A stretch of 64,000 bases of DNA from Desulfurella acetivorans A63 (GTDB lineage Bacteria > Campylobacterota_A > Desulfurellia > Desulfurellales > Desulfurellaceae). Positions 47,858 to 56,583 of the stretch are shown in pieces (position 1 is the stretch's first letter; each line of letters begins with the position of its first letter). Both the position numbers and the translations under genes were made by a program. Below the pieces are notes generated by a model, which saw only the letters and a list, made by a program, of their open reading frames with translations, had not been told where the DNA came from and did no database searches. The DNA lies in NCBI GenBank assembly GCA_000517565.1, contig CP007051.1, positions 1,077,039 to 1,141,038 on the forward strand, in the 5' to 3' direction.

Positions 47858-48706
47858 TTATTGCTTGATAAACACTTTATTTCTCCCGGAATTTTTGGCA
47901 ATATACAGTGCTTCGTCCGCTTCTTTTATTAAAGACTCAATTGTTAATAAATCACTAGGTTGACTTTTTGATATGCCGATAGAAACTGTTGCTTTTATTT
48001 CAAAGTCATTAAATAAGAAAGTAAGTTTTTCTATTTCTTTTCTTATAGTTTCTGCCTTTTCGATAACATTTTCAAATTTGCAAATAAGACCCGCTACAAA
48101 TTCTTCTCCACCGTATCGCAAAAAAACATCTTCTATTCTCAATAAGCTTTTTATAGTTTTAGCTATCTGATACAAAACATAATCACCCGCTTGATGTCCA
48201 AAAGTATCGTTAATTTTTTTGAAGTGATCAATATCAAACATTATTACATAAAAAGCATTACCAGAGCGCTTAGCCCTTGAATAATCTTCGGCTAATCTTT
48301 GCATACCAAACCTTCTGTTGTATATACCGGTAAGTTCATCTAATGCAGCAATTTTTTGCATATGCTCATACGCACTTGACCTGTCAAGTGCCAAATTATA
48401 TTGATAAATTAATCTTTTGAAAAAGTTTATATCATCTTGTTTCAAATATGAGTTAAAATACAGTGCTATTAGATATTTTTCGCTTTTTTTTGTTTCAATG
48501 GGTAAAAATACAACTTCTTTTGGCTTAACAGATAATGTAGCAATACTTATTTCTATGTTTGAATCTCTAAAGCTTAACAATTGACCTTTATCCAATATAT
48601 TTTTAATGGACTCTTTTTGCTTATCATTAAGTTGCTCTCTAGATAAATAACTGAATATTACATTTAAATTTCCCATTCTATCAAGGTTAAAAATCTCAAT
48701 ACCCAA
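47858..48706 (-). pseudogene. Frameshifted diguanylate cyclase, GAF-like and GGDEF part
   Basis: 282 codons. Residues 1-110 look like a GAF-type sensor; the rest is a GGDEF domain with 'RYGGEEF' and an I-site ('RIEDVF'), so the catalytic part is intact. Its apparent start is a TTG in mid-domain without a ribosome site. Upstream in the same frame the codons read F-V-T-D-N-F-N-C-L-G-I-E, which joins seamlessly to the gene at 48664-49206 if one base is added near 48728-48730. So this and the next entry are two halves of one membrane cyclase broken by a one-base loss, or by a sequencing error. Confidence 0.75.
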
Positions 48707-49206
48707 ACAATTAAAATTATCAGTAACAAATTTGCAAAATTCCTATTTAGCTCTTTTATTTCTAAAGATTCGTTGAGTTTTAAATAAAATTCATCACTTT
48801 TTTGATACTGCCAAAAAAATTGTCTAATAATGCTGATAAATAAATTGTATTTTGTACCTAAATCATATACATCCCTGTTGTTTTCAACAAAACAATCCGT
48901 ACAAGATTCAACGTATTTTATCTTTCCTTCAATGTAATTTTGTATATTTGTTGAAATCGTATCAATTTTATTTTTAAGATTTGCCAATCGTTTTATGATT
49001 GTTATTTTTATTATTAAAAAACCTATTAAACCAACAATTATACCAGAAATTATGCATACTGTAAAAAATATTGTTGTATAGACTTTTTCCTTTGGCAAAG
49101 CCAAAACAAAATCACTGAAAAAAGGAAACAAAACACCAATTAAAACACCAAAACCAAGCATCAATATAGCAGATTGAATTATTGCATTATCTTTAATAGT
49201 ACGCAC
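48664..49206 (-). pseudogene. Frameshifted diguanylate cyclase, membrane sensor part
   Basis: The first 150 or so codons encode the N-terminal part of the cyclase: two transmembrane helices (about 10-30 and 43-66), a HAMP-like linker and a conserved stretch with 'CTDCF' and 'RQFFWQYQKSDEFYLKL'. After 'ELNRNFAN' the frame slips and the last 20 residues ('VWVLRFLTLIEWEI') are out-of-frame translation ending at a TAA. Start ATG at 49206 lacks a strong ribosome site. See the preceding entry. Confidence 0.7.
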
Positions 49207-49303: not shown

Positions 49304-49332
49304 TTTACAAATTCTATTATTTATGGTAATAT
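49304..49332 (+). promoter_or_regulatory. Promoter of the pyrophosphatase-like/hppA run
   Basis: TTTACA (49304-49309), 17 bases, TAATAT (49327-49332), 30 bases before the ATG at 49363, which has AAAAGGAG upstream. The gap 49207-49303 shows nothing else. Confidence 0.5.
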
Positions 49333-49362: not shown

Positions 49363-50661
49363 ATGAGGAGTGCAAAACATATTTTTGTAATCGGAAGAAA
49401 AAATCCAGATTTAGATAGTATAGCTTCGTGCATTGGATATGCTTATCTAAAAAACAAAATATCAAACAGCAACGAATATATTGCATGTGCAAGCGGAAGT
49501 ATAAATGTAGAAACACAAAAAGTTTTAAGTTACCTAGGCGCACCTCTGCCTAATTTCATAACAAATTTAAATCTAAAAGTATGTGATATAATGACGCAAA
49601 ATATTATAACAGTAGAAAAAAATGCACCAATAACAGATGTATTTAAATTAATGCTAAAAAAAGATTTAAGAATAGTACCTATTGTTGATGAAGAAAATAA
49701 ATTTTGTGGATCTATAGATATGCTTGATATAGCAAGAAAAAGCATATCTGCCATAATACCTGATATATTTAGAAAAATTAAGACTAAAGTTAGTTTAATA
49801 GCAAAATCGCTTGATGGTAAAATTTTAAATGATCCATTTAGTGATGAAGAATTTGTAGCAAATGTTATTTTAGGTACAATGGACGCAGATAGTTTTTTAG
49901 AAGAAATACAAAACTTTGATCCACAAAATGTTATTTTAATTGTAGCAAACAGGCATGATATTCAAAAAAAAGCTGTAGAAATAGGTGTTAAATGCCTTAT
50001 TATTTCAAACAATGCGAAGCCTTCCAAGGATATTATTGATCTTGCAAAAAAAAATCAGGTAGCAATTATTCTGTCTTCTTATGGTTCATTTGCGACAGCT
50101 GGTCTTGTCGAATGGAGCGCTCCAATATTTACTATAGCAGATAAAAACCCATCTACAGTACAAGAAGGTGAATTTGTAAAAGACATCAAAGAAAAGGTTT
50201 ATAGCTCTAAAAATCGTGCAATCATTGTTTTAAATCCTTTTGGCAATATACTTGGCATTATAACAAGAACTGATATTATAAAATATTCAAAAAGACAGGT
50301 AATACTTATTGATCATTCTGATTCGGTCAATGCCCCAGAAGGGATATTTGAAAGTGAAGTATTAGAAATAATTGATCATCACAGGTTAGGAGATATAAAA
50401 ACTCCAAATCTTACACGCTACAGAATAGAACCATTTGGCGCAACAGCAACCATAATCGCAGATGAGTTTTTTAAAAATAATGTAATACCAGAAAAAAAGA
50501 TTGCGTTACTTCTTGCAAGCGGTATAATTGTTAATACTTTATTCTTGCAACCAGATAAAACATGTGATTATGATCTAAAAATGCTTCAGTGGCTTTGTGA
50601 GAAAGCAAGTATTGATTACCAAACTTTTTCTTTGCAAATAAGAAATATTATTAATACTTAA
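49363..50661 (+). CDS. Degenerate CBS/DRTGG family II pyrophosphatase homologue
   Basis: 432 residues in the order DHH part 1 (1-65), CBS1 (70-125), DRTGG-like (about 135-240), CBS2 (about 245-308), DHH part 2 (310-425), the layout of nucleotide-regulated Mn-dependent pyrophosphatases. Compared with the Bacillus subtilis enzyme, D13, D15, D75 and H97/H98 survive as D16, D18, D317 and H339/H340, but ligand H9 is R12 ('[12 protein letters not shown]') and ligand D149 is N391 ('GIIVNTLF'). The entire C-terminal DHHA2 domain with the substrate-binding S-R-K-K-Q motif is absent; the family usually has about 545 residues. I infer it cannot hydrolyse pyrophosphate and may be a nucleotide-sensing regulator. 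hppA follows 13 bases later. Confidence 0.85.
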
Positions 50662-50674
50662 GGGAGGTTTTTGG

Positions 50675-52744
50675 ATGGATGTGGCAAAGGTAATATTGCT
50701 AATTGCTTTTGGTAGCTCTTTGGTCTCTATTATTTATGCTGTTATAAGTGCTTATTTAGTTATGTCAAAAGAAGAAGGCACGCAACGCATGAAGGATATA
50801 GCAAGAGCTATCCAAGAAGGTGCCTATGCATTTTTAGCAAGAGAGTATAAATACATAGCAATAGTTGCTATTGTGATTTTTGCTATTCTATGGGCTTTGG
50901 GTTCTGTATCAAGCCATTTTGGTCTACTCACAGCAATGGGATATTTGCTTGGAGCTTTTTTATCTGGGCTTGCAGGGTTTATCGGTATGGTGGTTTCCGT
51001 AAAAAGCAATGTTCGAACAGCAAATATTGCAAAAGAAGGGTTAAAAAAAGCTTTAAGATTATCATTTACAGGTGCTTCTGTTACAGGTTTTCTAGTTACA
51101 GGTTTTGGACTTTTGGCAATTGCAGGTTTTTATTATATATCCGTTTATTTACTTGGAAACTCTGTAGATCATACAATAAAAGCACTAATTGGACTTGCTT
51201 TTGGTACAAGCTTAATTAGCGTGTTTGCAAGACTTGGAGGTGGCATTTACACAAAAGCGGCAGATGTTGGAGCTGACCTTGTAGGTAAAGTTGAAGCAGG
51301 GATACCAGAAGACGATCCAAGAAACCCAGCAGTTATAGCTGATAATGTGGGCGACAATGTAGGTGACTGTGCTGGAATGGCAGCAGACGTGTTTGAAACA
51401 TTTACAGTTACTACTGTTGCTGCGATGATTTTAGGTCACTCTTTATTTGATCCAAAAAATTTAATGGGTATAGCTGGAATGCTTCCTTTGTTAATTGTTT
51501 CTATTGCTTCTGTTTCTGGAATAATTGGTACTTTCTTTGTAAAAGTTGGAAAATCAGGAAATATTATGGGAGCATTTTATAAAGGTTTGGTTGCAACAGC
51601 CATTATTTCACTGATTGTTATATGGTTTGCTATGAATAATCTTATACCTGGCTCAATTGGACAATATCCAACAATAAATATATTTATTGCAAGTGTGCTT
51701 GGAATGATCCTAACGGGTCTTATAATGTTAATTACAGAGTATTATACATCATATAGCTTTAATCCGGTAAAATCTATAGCAAAATCATCAGTAACAGGTC
51801 ATGCAACTAACATTATTCAGGGTATGTCTGTAATGTACAAAGCACCTGCACTTCCTGCAATAGTTATTGCACTTACAACTTATTTTTCATACCAGCTTGC
51901 TGGTTTATACGGTATTGGAATCGCAGCTGCTTCGATGCTTTCTCTAACAGGTATAATAATCTCCATTGACTCATACGGACCCATAACGGATAACGCTGGT
52001 GGTATAGCTGAAATGGCAGAACTGGATGAATCTGTAAGAAAAGTAACAGATCCATTAGATGCAGTTGGAAATACTACAAAAGCAGTAACCAAAGGATTTG
52101 CAATAGGTTCTGCTGCTTTGGCAGCACTTGTTTTATTTGCCGAATATACAAGGGTTTTAGCTTCATCAAATATAGGTGCTCAATTAACAAGCTTTGATTT
52201 AAGCAACCCATACGTAATAGTAGGCTTACTACTTGGTGGTTTACTACCATTTTATTTTGGCGCTATGTCAATGGAAGCTGTTGGACAAGCAGGCGGTTTG
52301 ATGGTCGAAGAGGTAAGAAGGCAGTTTAGAGAAATCAAAGGTATTTTAGAAGGTAAAGCAAAACCTGATTATGCTGCATGTGTTGATATCGTAACAAAAG
52401 CATCTATTAAAAAAATGGTTGCTCCAGGACTTATACCTGTTCTTGCACCGATTATTGTCTACTTTTTATTTGGACCTGTTGCTTTAGGTGCACTCTCAAT
52501 AGGGTCAATTGTAACTGGTTTCTTTTTAGCAGTATCAATGACAAGTGGTGGTGGTGCATGGGATAATGCAAAAAAATATATAGAAGACGGACAATTTGGC
52601 GGAAAAGGAAGTGAGGCACATAAAGCAGCAGTAACAGGCGATACGGTTGGAGATCCTCTTAAAGACACTGCAGGGCCTGCTATAAACCCAATGATAAAAA
52701 TTATAAATATAGTTGCAATACTTATAGTGTTGGTTTTTGCTTAA
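50675..52744 (+). CDS. hppA: K+-insensitive pyrophosphate-energised proton pump
   Basis: 689 residues, about 16 transmembrane helices. The pyrophosphate site is '[20 protein letters not shown]' and '[19 protein letters not shown]' (with flanking acidic motifs near the C-terminus, '[14 protein letters not shown]' and '[15 protein letters not shown]'). The signature '[10 protein letters not shown]' with K and T at the K460/T463 positions marks the K+-independent class, which pumps H+. It conserves energy from biosynthetic pyrophosphate as a proton gradient in the inner membrane. GGGAGG precedes the start. Confidence 0.95.
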
Positions 52745-52758
52745 AAAGGTATAAAATT

Positions 52759-53001
52759 ATGAAAGCGACAATTATAGTTAAACCTAAAAAAGGCGTGCTT
52801 GATCCTCAAGGAAATGCAATAAAAAAAGTTGCCGAGAATTATTTTGGGGTGATTTTTGGTGAGATTAGATCTGGGAAATATTTTGAAGTAGAAATTGAAC
52901 ATGAAAATGCAAAAAACATAATTGAACAGCTTGCATCTAAAATACTATCAAACGAAATTATTGAGGATTATGAGATTATTTATGAAAGTAGGAATAGTTA
53001 G
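52759..53001 (+). CDS. purS: Phosphoribosylformylglycinamidine synthase subunit PurS
   Basis: 80 residues, the small structural subunit of the three-part FGAR amidotransferase. 'IVKPKKGVLDPQGNAI' and 'EVEIEH' are typical. It bridges PurQ and PurL in the complex. It overlaps purQ by 20 bases; purL is not in this window. Confidence 0.92.
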   Translation: MKATIIVKPKKGVLDPQGNAIKKVAENYFGVIFGEIRSGKYFEVEIEHENAKNIIEQLASKILSNEIIEDYEIIYESRNS

Positions 53002-53647
53002 GTTTTTAGGGACAAATTGTGATTATGATTGCGAATTTGCAGCAAACTACATGGGTGCACAAACAAAATTTGTATGGCACGAACAAACAAATCTTAAAGA
53101 ATTTGATTGTATCATACTTCCTGGCGGTTTCTCTTATGGTGATTATTTAAGGGCAGGAGCGCTAGCAAAATTTACTAAACTTGCCAGCGCACTAATTGAA
53201 TTTGATAAATACGGAGGCTATATTTTGGGTATTTGCAATGGTTTTCAGATTTTATGTGAGCTGCATTTGTTAGATGGTGCCCTCATTACAAATGTTAATT
53301 TACGCTTTATACACAAGCAAGTGCATATAAAATTGATACCATCTATCTGCAAATTAACTCAAAACATAGAAAAAAAAATCTTGCAAATGCCTATCGCTCA
53401 CAAAGAAGGCAATTTTTATTGCGATGAAACAACACTTAAAAAATTAAATGATGAAAATAGAATCGTATTTAAATACTGCGACAAAGACGGCAATGTGGAT
53501 ATAGGTTCAAACCCAAATGGAAGTCTTGAAAACATAGCTGGCATTTGTAACAAAAAAGGCAATGTTTTGGGTTTGATGCCTCACCCTGAAAGAGCTGTAA
53601 GCTTTTTAGGGCAAGATGGCGAGCACTTTTTTAATTTTTTGAGGTAG
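52982..53647 (+). CDS. purQ: Phosphoribosylformylglycinamidine synthase subunit PurQ
   Basis: 221 residues; class I glutaminase that feeds ammonia to PurL for purine synthesis. The nucleophile Cys lies in 'ILGICNGFQIL', the catalytic His-Glu pair in 'GLMPHPERAV', and the oxyanion region in 'LPGGFSYGDYLRAG'. The start is the ATG at 52982 inside purS, from which 'MKVGIVRFLGTNCDYD' is the normal PurQ N-terminus; upstream ATGs lie deep in purS. Confidence 0.94.
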   Translation: MKVGIVRFLGTNCDYDCEFAANYMGAQTKFVWHEQTNLKEFDCIILPGGFSYGDYLRAGALAKFTKLASALIEFDKYGGYILGICNGFQILCELHLLDGALITNVNLRFIHKQVHIKLIPSICKLTQNIEKKILQMPIAHKEGNFYCDETTLKKLNDENRIVFKYCDKDGNVDIGSNPNGSLENIAGICNKKGNVLGLMPHPERAVSFLGQDGEHFFNFLR

Positions 53648-53649
53648 AG

Positions 53650-54951
53650 ATGTTTGAAGAAAGCAAAAGACTTTTTTTAGAAGCAAAAAAATACATCGTA
53701 GGCGGCGTTAACAGTCCGGTTAGAGCTTTCAAAAGTATTGGAATTGACCCCATATTTATAAAAAAGGCAAAAGGTGCATATCTATACAGTGAGGATTCAA
53801 ATACTTTTATTGATTATGTTTCAAGTTTTGGACCAAATATTCTTGGAAATGCAAACAATACAATTATAAATAAAGTAAAGGCCGCACTTGAAAACGGCTT
53901 TACATATGGCGCTTGCACGAAAGCAGAAATAGAACTTGCAAAAAGAATTGTTGAAGCTTTTGATTCAATTGAATTAACTCGTTTTGTTAACTCTGGCACA
54001 GAAGCTGTCATGAGTTCTATTAGACTTGCAAGGGGTTTTACACAAAGAGAAAATTGTCTTAAATTTATTGGATGCTATCATGGGCATTATGATGGCATGC
54101 TTGTTGGTGCTGGATCTGGTGCTGCTACATTTGGTGTACCAACAAGTAAAGGTGTTATAGAAGATATAGCAAAACACACGCTACTTTGCGAATATAATGA
54201 TTTTGACGCTGTTAAAAAGATATTTCAAGATTATGGGCATACCATAGCATGCGTAATAGTTGAGCCAATTGCAGCAAATATGGGTGTGGTGTTGCCAAAA
54301 CCTAACTTTTTAAAATTTTTAAGAGAAATCACACAACAATACGAAAGCTTGCTTATATTTGACGAAGTTATAACAGGATTTAGAGCATGTTATGGCGGTG
54401 TACAGACTTTAGAAAATATTAAGCCCGATTTAACAATTTTAGGTAAAATTATAGGAGGAGGCTTTCCCCTTGCTATGTATGGGGGAAATAGAGAAATCAT
54501 GAGTTTAATAAGTCCGGAAGGACCAGTTTACCAAGCCGGTACACTATCTGGCAATCCCATCGCTGTCCAGGCAGGTATAGCTACACTTGATATGCTAAAA
54601 AACACAAACCCTTATGAACAATTAAAACTAAATACACAAATTTTAGTTTCAAGAATAATGGGACTTGCAAGAACTTACGATATACCTATGAGCGAAAACT
54701 CTTTTGCTTCCTGTTTTACATTTTTCTTTACAGAAGAAAAACCTACAAATTATACTGAAGTTGTAAAATCTAACGACCGTTTATTTAAAAACTTCTTTTT
54801 AGGAATGTTAAAACGTGGTATATATTTTGCGCCATCTCAATTTGAAGCAAATTTTCTATCAACTGCACACACCAAAAACGACATAGAGTACACAATAAAT
54901 GCTGCGGAAGAAATATTTAAAGAATTACAAAATGCAAAATTTATAGTATGA
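53650..54951 (+). CDS. hemL: Glutamate-1-semialdehyde 2,1-aminomutase
   Basis: 433 residues. Converts glutamate 1-semialdehyde to 5-aminolevulinate in the C5 route to heme and cobalamin. PLP-dependent class III aminotransferase fold; catalytic Lys in 'ILGKIIGGGFPLAMYGG', 'VNSPVRAFK' at the N-terminus and 'FDEVITGFR' are HemL-specific. Two bases after purQ; overlaps the next gene as ATGA. Confidence 0.95.
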   Translation: MFEESKRLFLEAKKYIVGGVNSPVRAFKSIGIDPIFIKKAKGAYLYSEDSNTFIDYVSSFGPNILGNANNTIINKVKAALENGFTYGACTKAEIELAKRIVEAFDSIELTRFVNSGTEAVMSSIRLARGFTQRENCLKFIGCYHGHYDGMLVGAGSGAATFGVPTSKGVIEDIAKHTLLCEYNDFDAVKKIFQDYGHTIACVIVEPIAANMGVVLPKPNFLKFLREITQQYESLLIFDEVITGFRACYGGVQTLENIKPDLTILGKIIGGGFPLAMYGGNREIMSLISPEGPVYQAGTLSGNPIAVQAGIATLDMLKNTNPYEQLKLNTQILVSRIMGLARTYDIPMSENSFASCFTFFFTEEKPTNYTEVVKSNDRLFKNFFLGMLKRGIYFAPSQFEANFLSTAHTKNDIEYTINAAEEIFKELQNAKFIV

Positions 54952-55208
54952 AGAAAAATAAAAATAATAAAGATTTTTATAAAGGTTTATATGATGCTTC
55001 AACGATTGGTATGAGTTTTGTTTTTTCTATAATAATTGGGGGTCTTATTGGCTATTTTCTTGACAAACAATTTCCTTCCACACACCCATGGCTTTTATTG
55101 CTCTTTATTTTTTTTGGTATTGTTGCAGCTTTTAGAAATTTATATATTGGAACAAAAAAAATAAATAAAGAAAGTATAGATAAAAATGACTCAAATAAAA
55201 AAACTTGA
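54948..55208 (+). CDS. AtpZ-like F0 accessory membrane protein
   Basis: 86 residues with two transmembrane helices (about 17-40, 46-64) and a conserved 'GGLIGYFLDKQF' loop, as in the AtpZ/AtpI family of small proteins encoded before F0 genes. AtpZ is thought to help ion (Mg/Ca) supply or c-ring assembly. Overlaps hemL by four bases and the next gene by 23. Confidence 0.8.
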   Translation: MKKNKNNKDFYKGLYDASTIGMSFVFSIIIGGLIGYFLDKQFPSTHPWLLLLFIFFGIVAAFRNLYIGTKKINKESIDKNDSNKKT

Positions 55209-55536
55209 AATTATTTTAGTAATGTTGTATTTTATATTCGCAATAATTGCATTTTTTGCAATTAATTTTTTATTTGTAGGTGTTTTGGTGGGTTCGAGTA
55301 TAGCTTTGATTGATTGGTTTTTGTTAAAAAAAATGTCTTTTAGATTGGTAAAAAAAGGTAGATTTTCTTTTTTTGGGTACATTGTAAGATTATTAGTAGT
55401 TGCTTTTTTAATAATTGTAAGCTACAAGCTATTAGTATATAGTTTTATAGGTTTAATAATAGGCTTTTCTATTTTGCCTATTTCCGTTTTAGTTTATTTT
55501 ATCCTGTTTAGAAAAAATTTTAATAAGGAGGCCTAA
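55186..55536 (+). CDS. ATP synthase subunit I-like protein
   Basis: 116 residues with four transmembrane helices, the layout and position (directly before atpB) of AtpI, the c-ring assembly chaperone. Sequence identity in this family is low, so the call rests on topology and context. Its last base is the first base of the atpB ATG (TAATG). Confidence 0.65.
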   Translation: MTQIKKLEIILVMLYFIFAIIAFFAINFLFVGVLVGSSIALIDWFLLKKMSFRLVKKGRFSFFGYIVRLLVVAFLIIVSYKLLVYSFIGLIIGFSILPISVLVYFILFRKNFNKEA

Positions 55537-56210
55537 TGGAAGCACCTAACTTTTTGGAATTCATAGCACATGCACTTCATCTTCCAAATTTTATGGTTTT
55601 TACTTGGTTTATAATGCTTGTTATAATAGTGTTGGCTATAAGCGTTCGTTTTTCTCTAAAATTCATGCCATCAAATTTCCAAAATGTGGTTGAAGCATTT
55701 ATATCTGGTATGTATAATTTTGTAGAAGATATACTTGGTCCAAAAGAAACCAAAAAACATTTTAAGCTAATAGCATCGCTTGGTATATTTATATTTTTTT
55801 CAAATATAGTAGAACTTATACCCTGGTTTGTCCCACCAACATCAAGCTGGAATACAACAATTGCACTTGCTATTTTAGTGTTTGTTTACTACCAATACTT
55901 AGGCATAAAACACAACGGTCTAAAATATATAAAGCATTTTATGGGTCCTGTGTGGTGGCTTACACCTTTAATGATACCTGTTGAGATAATCGGTCATTTT
56001 GCAAGGATTTTATCGCTATCTGTCAGGCTTTTTGGAAATATAGGTGGTGATGATTTACTTTTAGCTGTATTGTTCTTTTTGGTTCCAGCACTTGTACCAA
56101 TTCCAGTTATGTTTTTAATACTATTTGCTGCTGTGTTGCAATCTTTTATATTCCCACTACTTACAACACTATACATTGCAGATGCTGTTGCAACACACCA
56201 TGAATCATGA
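55536..56210 (+). CDS. atpB: ATP synthase F0 subunit a
   Basis: 224 residues, five to six transmembrane helices. The essential Arg is in 'LSLSVRLFGNIGGDDLL', which faces the c-ring carboxylate and separates the two half-channels. GGAGG precedes the start. Together with the c subunit gene it forms an F0-only cluster; F1 and b subunit genes are not adjacent, as in Campylobacterota where atpB and atpE are apart from the F1 operon. Confidence 0.94.
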   Translation: MEAPNFLEFIAHALHLPNFMVFTWFIMLVIIVLAISVRFSLKFMPSNFQNVVEAFISGMYNFVEDILGPKETKKHFKLIASLGIFIFFSNIVELIPWFVPPTSSWNTTIALAILVFVYYQYLGIKHNGLKYIKHFMGPVWWLTPLMIPVEIIGHFARILSLSVRLFGNIGGDDLLLAVLFFLVPALVPIPVMFLILFAAVLQSFIFPLLTTLYIADAVATHHES

Positions 56211-56241
56211 GTAAACAATTTTTTTATTGTGAGGAGGTTTT

Positions 56242-56583
56242 ATGAAGGGTAAGGTCTTATTACTAACGGCGCTTTTACTACTTGCTGCAGTTCCAGCATT
56301 TGCAGCAGGCGCTCCACAAGCGGCAAGCTCACTTAAAGAGTATTACATGCTTGTAGCTATGGGTGGCGCAATCGGTCTTGGACTAGCTGCTGGGGGTGGT
56401 GGTATTGGTCAGGGCCATGCTGTTAACGGTACAGTCTTGGGTACTGCAAGAAACCCAAGTCTTTCTGGAAAGTTACTTACCGTTATGATGATTGGTCTTG
56501 CTATGATCGAGTCGCTAGTTATCTATATGCTTGTTATTGTTTTGATTATTTTCTATGCAAATCCATTTCATATTGTGTTTTAA
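56242..56583 (+). CDS. atpE: ATP synthase F0 subunit c with signal peptide
   Basis: 113 residues, longer than a typical c subunit (about 80) because of an N-terminal signal-like peptide (1-22, 'VPAFA' then A-G). The two-helix hairpin has the loop 'TARNPSLSGKL'. The ion-binding carboxylate is E90; Q57 in helix 1 is 33 residues before it, S91 follows it and Y95 is five after, exactly the spacing of Q32/E65/S66/Y70 in the Na+-binding Ilyobacter ring. The threonine after the serine is replaced by L92. Na+ specificity is therefore possible but not certain. A terminator hairpin follows. Confidence 0.93.
   Translation: MKGKVLLLTALLLLAAVPAFAAGAPQAASSLKEYYMLVAMGGAIGLGLAAGGGGIGQGHAVNGTVLGTARNPSLSGKLLTVMMIGLAMIESLVIYMLVIVLIIFYANPFHIVF

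Follow-up and report, generated by a model that had tools for sequence, protein, structure and literature searches.

The locus analysed here raises the question of which function could preserve a protein that resembles a soluble pyrophosphatase and has very probably lost its catalytic activity. Within the window, i.e. the whole stretch of 64,000 nucleotides of Desulfurella acetivorans A63 that was analysed, a paralogue of the CBS-type family II pyrophosphatases (CBS-PPases) is encoded at 49363..50661 (+) and is closely followed by hppA, the gene of a membrane pyrophosphatase. The 432-aa product, delineated from the ORF, Pfam searches and alignments, consists of the N-terminal part of a DHH domain, CBS1, DRTGG, CBS2 and the C-terminal part of DHH, without a DHHA2 domain, and is referred to below as the pseudoenzyme. 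The answer that we favour, on balance, is that this gene specifies a catalytically dead, adenine-nucleotide-responsive regulator residing in a PPi/purine operon, the target being left open.

Genomes and reference sets

The phylum sample consisted of 25 genomes distributed among four families: three from the window's genus (f1), 16 from f2, three from f3 and three from f4. The order corresponds to the 19 genomes of f1 and f2. A reference set of 90 active CBS-PPases was assembled from 13 proteins of the same phylum, retrieved by whole-genome search, and 77 proteins of the genome collection, of which very few belong to this phylum.

Loss of the catalytic apparatus

Pfam analysis returns a split DHH domain (6-388), two CBS domains and DRTGG; the open reading frame and the DRTGG domain reported in the first-pass annotation are thus both found. 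Upon alignment with the B. subtilis family II PPase (PDB), R12 (codon 49396..49398, +) is paired with the His in GHQNPDTD and N391 (codon 50533..50535, +) with the Asp in IISDSL. The metal ligands of that enzyme are H9, D13, D15, D75, H97 and D149; H9 and D149 are the ones replaced, and one ligand is missing from each metal site. Both replacements had been proposed from the window alone and are borne out on a larger scale: all 22 orthologues display R and N at these positions, whereas the 90 active CBS-PPases have H and D without exception. With one ligand gone per site and a positive or neutral residue in its place, the pocket would be metal-free or hold a single metal and may serve folding or ligand binding; the charge of R12 probably substitutes for one metal and keeps the old pocket folded.

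Several other active-site elements are altered. The DHNExxQ motif reads DHS(S/D)xxN in the pseudoenzyme clade (N319S, E320 changed, Q323N), S390 is changed and no SPT loop is left at 397-399. The DHH core had initially been described as intact, which applies to D16, D18, D317, H339 and H340 and not to the elements just listed. Position 319, a Ser in 22 of 22 orthologues, corresponds to Asn312 of dhPPase, and the invariant R302 to Arg295; both equivalences were mapped by counting, with the numbering published for the R276-N279 loop transferred through the 3l2b alignment. Replacement of Asn312 by Ala in dhPPase reverses the effect of ATP (PMC11172384, PMC10742508).

The protein stops where DHHA2 would begin, as first noticed in the window: this C-terminal domain with its SRKKQ motif is absent from the 22 orthologues, SRKKQ being present in 85 of the 90 active homologues. 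A missed DHHA2 exon or second copy, a source of error considered from the outset, was searched for and rejected. The only DHHA2 domain of the genome belongs to a separate and intact 551-aa CBS-PPase (C1:678.6-680.2 kb, with HKNPDTDS and SRKKQ) and no DHHA2 fragment is located nearby.

The split-DHH architecture with its CBS-DRTGG-CBS insert is that of the CBS-PPases, according to Pfam and to fold matches (3l2b/3l31, 1wpm). Four of the six ligands are kept in the orthologues, and neither of the two defining features looked for, the full set of six ligands and DHHA2 with SRKKQ, is found; judged by its sequence, the pseudoenzyme is not a functional CBS-PPase. There are strong grounds to expect that it should not hydrolyze PPi. 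The earlier proposal that PPi might be bound without being cleaved is also unlikely, the protein having lost the residues with which DHHA2 binds the substrate. D16, D18, D317, H318, D338, H339 and H340 are nevertheless invariant among the orthologues, beyond what a plain scaffold needs, which could mean that the protein is still an enzyme, acting on another substrate through a single-metal or Arg/Asn-modified DHH site. We consider this improbable: each metal site is short of one ligand, the DHNExxQ and SPT motifs are changed, no second domain is left for substrate binding and, in dhPPase, removing DHHA2 was by itself enough to abolish PPi hydrolysis (PMC10742508).

The pseudoenzyme matches the NCBIfam model NF011443 (putative manganese-dependent inorganic diphosphatase) with 337.8 bits for a cut-off of 335, over profile positions 3-421 of 546 only. 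The name is misleading in this case, the uncovered part of the profile being the DHHA2 domain. Recognition of the pseudoenzyme would correct the 'manganese-dependent inorganic diphosphatase' annotation originating from curated models.

Distribution, ancestry and selection

Orthologues were retrieved from 22 of the 25 phylum genomes (three in f1, window included, 16 in f2 and three in f3), and the gene was not found in the three f4 genomes. It is present in three of the four families of the lineage, and every orthologue is open, with 428-434 aa. Among the matches listed from the genome collection, the best 80 relatives are truncated at contig ends only and none lacks a ligand; one of them has hppA within the fetched flank. 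In two further phyla, represented by 30 and 136 genomes, no similar protein was detected at E 1e-40 with a query which finds 22 of 25 in its own phylum. The absence of the pseudoenzyme from other lineages applies to the genomes and listed matches covered by these searches. The relatives listed in a plasmid search are all below 60% identity, the best at 28%, and two of them carry an ordinary Mn-dependent diphosphatase annotation.

In a tree computed by a quick method and containing long branches, the 22 orthologues form a single clade with full support and a stem of 1.12 changes per column, outside the active paralogues of the phylum. The rooted Mfd tree places f4 outermost, followed by f3 and then by f1 and f2 together, and the same f3, f1 and f2 groups are recovered in the pseudoenzyme tree. 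This agreement indicates that the gene predates the separation of f3 and was most simply inherited vertically. An ancient CBS-PPase paralogue would accordingly have become a pseudoenzyme before f3 separated from the order.

The dN/dS ratio of the pseudoenzyme is 0.024-0.055 in pairs with dS > 0.4, the active paralogue being higher in matching genome pairs (0.078-0.087). Two very close pairs, with few changes, give 0.09 and 0.18. A missing domain and missing catalytic residues are what decay would produce, and a decaying pseudogene or an assembly error has to be weighed; the probability of either is nevertheless negligible, since the substitutions and the length are the same in 22 independent assemblies and dN/dS is low in diverged pairs. 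The pseudogene was rejected on the basis of these ratios and of the 22 conserved copies. The protein is therefore very probably both catalytically dead and selected for as a protein.

Genomic context

The hppA gene (50675..52744, +) begins 13 nt after the pseudoenzyme stop codon (50661 to 50675), exactly as first annotated, and is preceded by the ribosome-binding sequence GGGAGG. Its catalytic motifs are intact and its GNTTKAVT motif denotes the K+-independent type, according to the K460/T463 signature. No terminator was found at the junction of the two genes. No riboswitch or other RNA element was found at the pseudoenzyme locus, two tRNAs located elsewhere being the only RNA matches within the window. 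A promoter-like site (49304..49332, +) lies 30 nt 5' of the pseudoenzyme start; it is a consensus match whose score does not exceed the shuffle expectation. Downstream, the same gene row contains the purine biosynthesis genes purS (52759..53001, +; Pfam and row conservation) and purQ (52982..53647, +; start inferred from orthologues). We infer from this arrangement that the pseudoenzyme, hppA and pur genes are co-transcribed. The row as a whole, hppA-(purC)-purS-purQ-hemL-atpI-atpB-atpE, extends over 52744-56583 of the window and is conserved throughout the order.

On the other side of the locus, a membrane GGDEF (diguanylate cyclase) gene at 47858-49206 (-) is represented by two overlapping ORFs of 282 and 180 aa. 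It is a single 447-aa ORF in G001 and is split as well, at another position, in G002. The split may be due to two frameshifts or to programmed or assembly effects.

The first-pass annotation had proposed a search for DHH-CBS-DRTGG proteins without DHHA2 next to hppA. All 19 genomes of the order contain this arrangement, hppA being located 13-21 nt 3' of the pseudoenzyme on the same strand, and the R12 and N391 substitutions are common to the 22 orthologues. When the contig permits, purC, purS, purQ, hemL and ATP synthase genes usually come after hppA; the row of the window's genus has no purC. The HppA proteins of the order display GNTTKAVT, the G013 copy ending at a contig end before the motif.

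A different context is observed in f3, where 7-8 nt separate the pseudoenzyme gene from a downstream purC-purS-purQ row that continues with hemL and atp genes, the operon being devoid of hppA. The HppA of these three genomes is only ~48% identical and is encoded on another contig. In the one f3 genome that was studied closely, G019 (L055, G019:C82), it is of the K+-dependent type (GNTTAAIG), unlinked and has other neighbours. Conversely, f4 possesses a K+-independent hppA-purC-purS-purQ operon without pseudoenzyme, which indicates either that hppA and the pur genes were neighbours before the pseudoenzyme arose or that the latter was lost in f4. For f3, the simplest explanation is that the operon copy of hppA was lost and the pseudoenzyme kept.

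Other pyrophosphatases

No family I soluble PPase was found in the 25 genomes, the controls being positive, and neither this family nor a DHHA2-bearing family II enzyme was found in G003, G004, G007, G009, G013, G015 and G019-G024. With families I and II covered by the search, HppA may be the only pyrophosphatase of these 12 genomes. HppA is likewise the only pyrophosphatase found, among family I and DHHA2-bearing family II, in nine genomes that carry the pseudoenzyme.

The active CBS-PPase and the pseudoenzyme co-occur in 13 genomes, and both retain the DHH and CBS/DRTGG parts used by CBS-PPases to form tetramers, from which one could imagine the pseudoenzyme as a regulatory subunit of the active full-length enzyme in mixed tetramers. 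This is very unlikely, since nine of the 22 pseudoenzyme genomes, seven of them at least 94% complete, lack any DHHA2-bearing enzyme; a conserved role cannot depend on a paralogue that is absent from them.

Regulatory domains and predicted structure

Both CBS domains had been described as intact, which is correct for the fold and incorrect for the ligand residues of CBS1. The ribose-phosphate motif of CBS2, GIITRTD (G-h-h-T-x-x-D; residues 298-304, 50254..50274, +), is canonical according to the definition of PMC11172384, and G298 as well as T301-D304 are invariant in 22 of 22 orthologues. That of CBS1 is degraded, a D or G occupying the phosphate-binding S/T position in all of them. The equivalent of Lys100 is R, M or L in the orthologues, many of those from f2 having M or L. 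Given the lost S/T and the variable Lys100, the ligand or its site must differ from those of known CBS-PPases. Nucleotide sensing by the pseudoenzyme is plausible from its sequence, with CBS2 alone bearing a canonical motif.

The segment 126-141, between CBS1 and DRTGG (49738..49785, +), is specific to the pseudoenzyme clade and contains nine invariant positions (K126, S127, I128, P133, D134, F136, R137, K140 and T141). In the AF2 model, which is matched best in the PDB by the regulatory region of the C. perfringens CBS-PPase (3l2b/3l31) and the B. subtilis PPase, the mean pLDDT is 90.2, with values below 50 at 130-135. Low confidence of this sort is common in binding segments. Such strict conservation within a loop modelled with low confidence suggests a contact site, and the segment is a candidate for partner binding.

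Proposed function

The pseudoenzyme is probably a nucleotide-responsive regulator. Having kept the CBS-DRTGG-CBS module and the DHH core, it would form a tetramer binding AMP and Ap4A, by analogy with a DHHA2-deleted dhPPase. It would act as a non-catalytic adaptor responding to adenine nucleotides, in which a ligand at the CBS2 side alters the conformation of the oligomer, the latter docking on a co-expressed partner, perhaps via the conserved loop 126-141. Within the order, no single partner is more probable than HppA, other partners being possible.

A regulator specific to HppA, binding it directly or at the membrane and tuning PPi-driven proton pumping to AMP/ATP or Ap4A, is a tentative reading. 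It agrees with the same-strand coupling in all genomes of the order and with the six of its 19 genomes where HppA is the only PPase found (family I and DHHA2-bearing family II searched) and the pseudoenzyme is still kept. A metabolic rationale can also be put forward. In Desulfurella, acetate can be activated via acetyl-CoA synthetase (PMC5317093; this analysis of Desulfurellaceae genomes does not mention pyrophosphatase), and the enzyme yields AMP and PPi. As both products arise in the same reaction, a coupling between AMP sensing and PPi use would have a purpose. The main evidence against a role restricted to HppA comes from f3, where the gene persists in an operon lacking hppA and HppA is divergent (K+-dependent and unlinked in G019), and from f4, whose HppA works without the pseudoenzyme. 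HppA as the direct target is thus possible and doubtful. The initial view of a sensor kept in order to tune HppA stands as regards lost catalysis, strong purifying selection, a regulatory role and coupling throughout the order; its HppA specificity is not supported by f3 and f4.

The neighbourhood common to f1/f2 and f3 is limited to purS-purQ-hemL-atp and, together with the position of the f3 gene directly upstream of purC, points to another target: the sensor would act on PurC, PurS or PurQ, hppA being a co-transcribed bystander which removes PPi. This is rather unlikely. The row lacks purC in the window's genus, hemL and ATP synthase genes belong to it as well, the sharing may merely mirror an old gene order, and the pur genes of f4 do without the sensor.

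Coming back to the regulator with an open target, control in trans of a proton-pumping membrane PPase by a dead soluble PPase reporting adenine nucleotides or Ap4A is slightly less probable still than direct targeting of HppA. If true, one PPase family would have lent its regulatory half to the control of another, unrelated one. A natural and selected CBS-PPase without DHHA2 would show the CBS-DRTGG module working apart from its own catalytic site. The pseudoenzyme would also offer a stable object for structural work, in a family for which full-length structures are difficult to determine.

Comparison with known systems

The first-pass annotation knew of no description of such a pair, and the literature searched, which covers few subscription journals, yielded none; nor did it contain a natural CBS-PPase without DHHA2, a trans-acting or CBS regulator of bacterial HppA, or a pseudoenzyme of such kind with known function. 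The closest counterpart is a laboratory construct, dhPPase with residues 425-544 (DHHA2) deleted, which is inactive and tetrameric, binds an AMP analogue like the whole enzyme and binds Ap4A more tightly (PMC10742508). The boundary is nearly identical to the natural end at residue 432 and the domain content is alike. The construct, however, has intact metal ligands, whereas the pseudoenzyme is natural, has two of them replaced and has been kept during evolution.

The CBS-PPases themselves (dhPPase, cpPPase; 3l2b/3l31) share with it the split DHH, the CBS-DRTGG-CBS insert, the domain order and the fold, four of six metal ligands and the CBS2 motif. They differ by H9 and D149, changed to R and N in the pseudoenzyme, by the DHNExxQ and SPT motifs, by the DHHA2 domain and by the S/T of CBS1.

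Regulation by a separate CBS protein is exemplified by AcuB of Bacillus/Geobacillus, which binds Ap4A and holds its partner enzyme AcuC inhibited (PMC13039410). The likeness is confined to the way of working, that of a stand-alone CBS protein operating through protein contact; AcuB has an ACT domain, neither DHH nor DRTGG, and another target. Cdc45, a DHH-family protein related to the RecJ nuclease, plays a non-catalytic role in a complex and illustrates the recruitment of a DHH fold for such a purpose, although it belongs to the RecJ branch and to the eukaryotic replisome and has no CBS or DRTGG domain. Among these systems, it is the regulatory half of a CBS-PPase that the pseudoenzyme likely works like.
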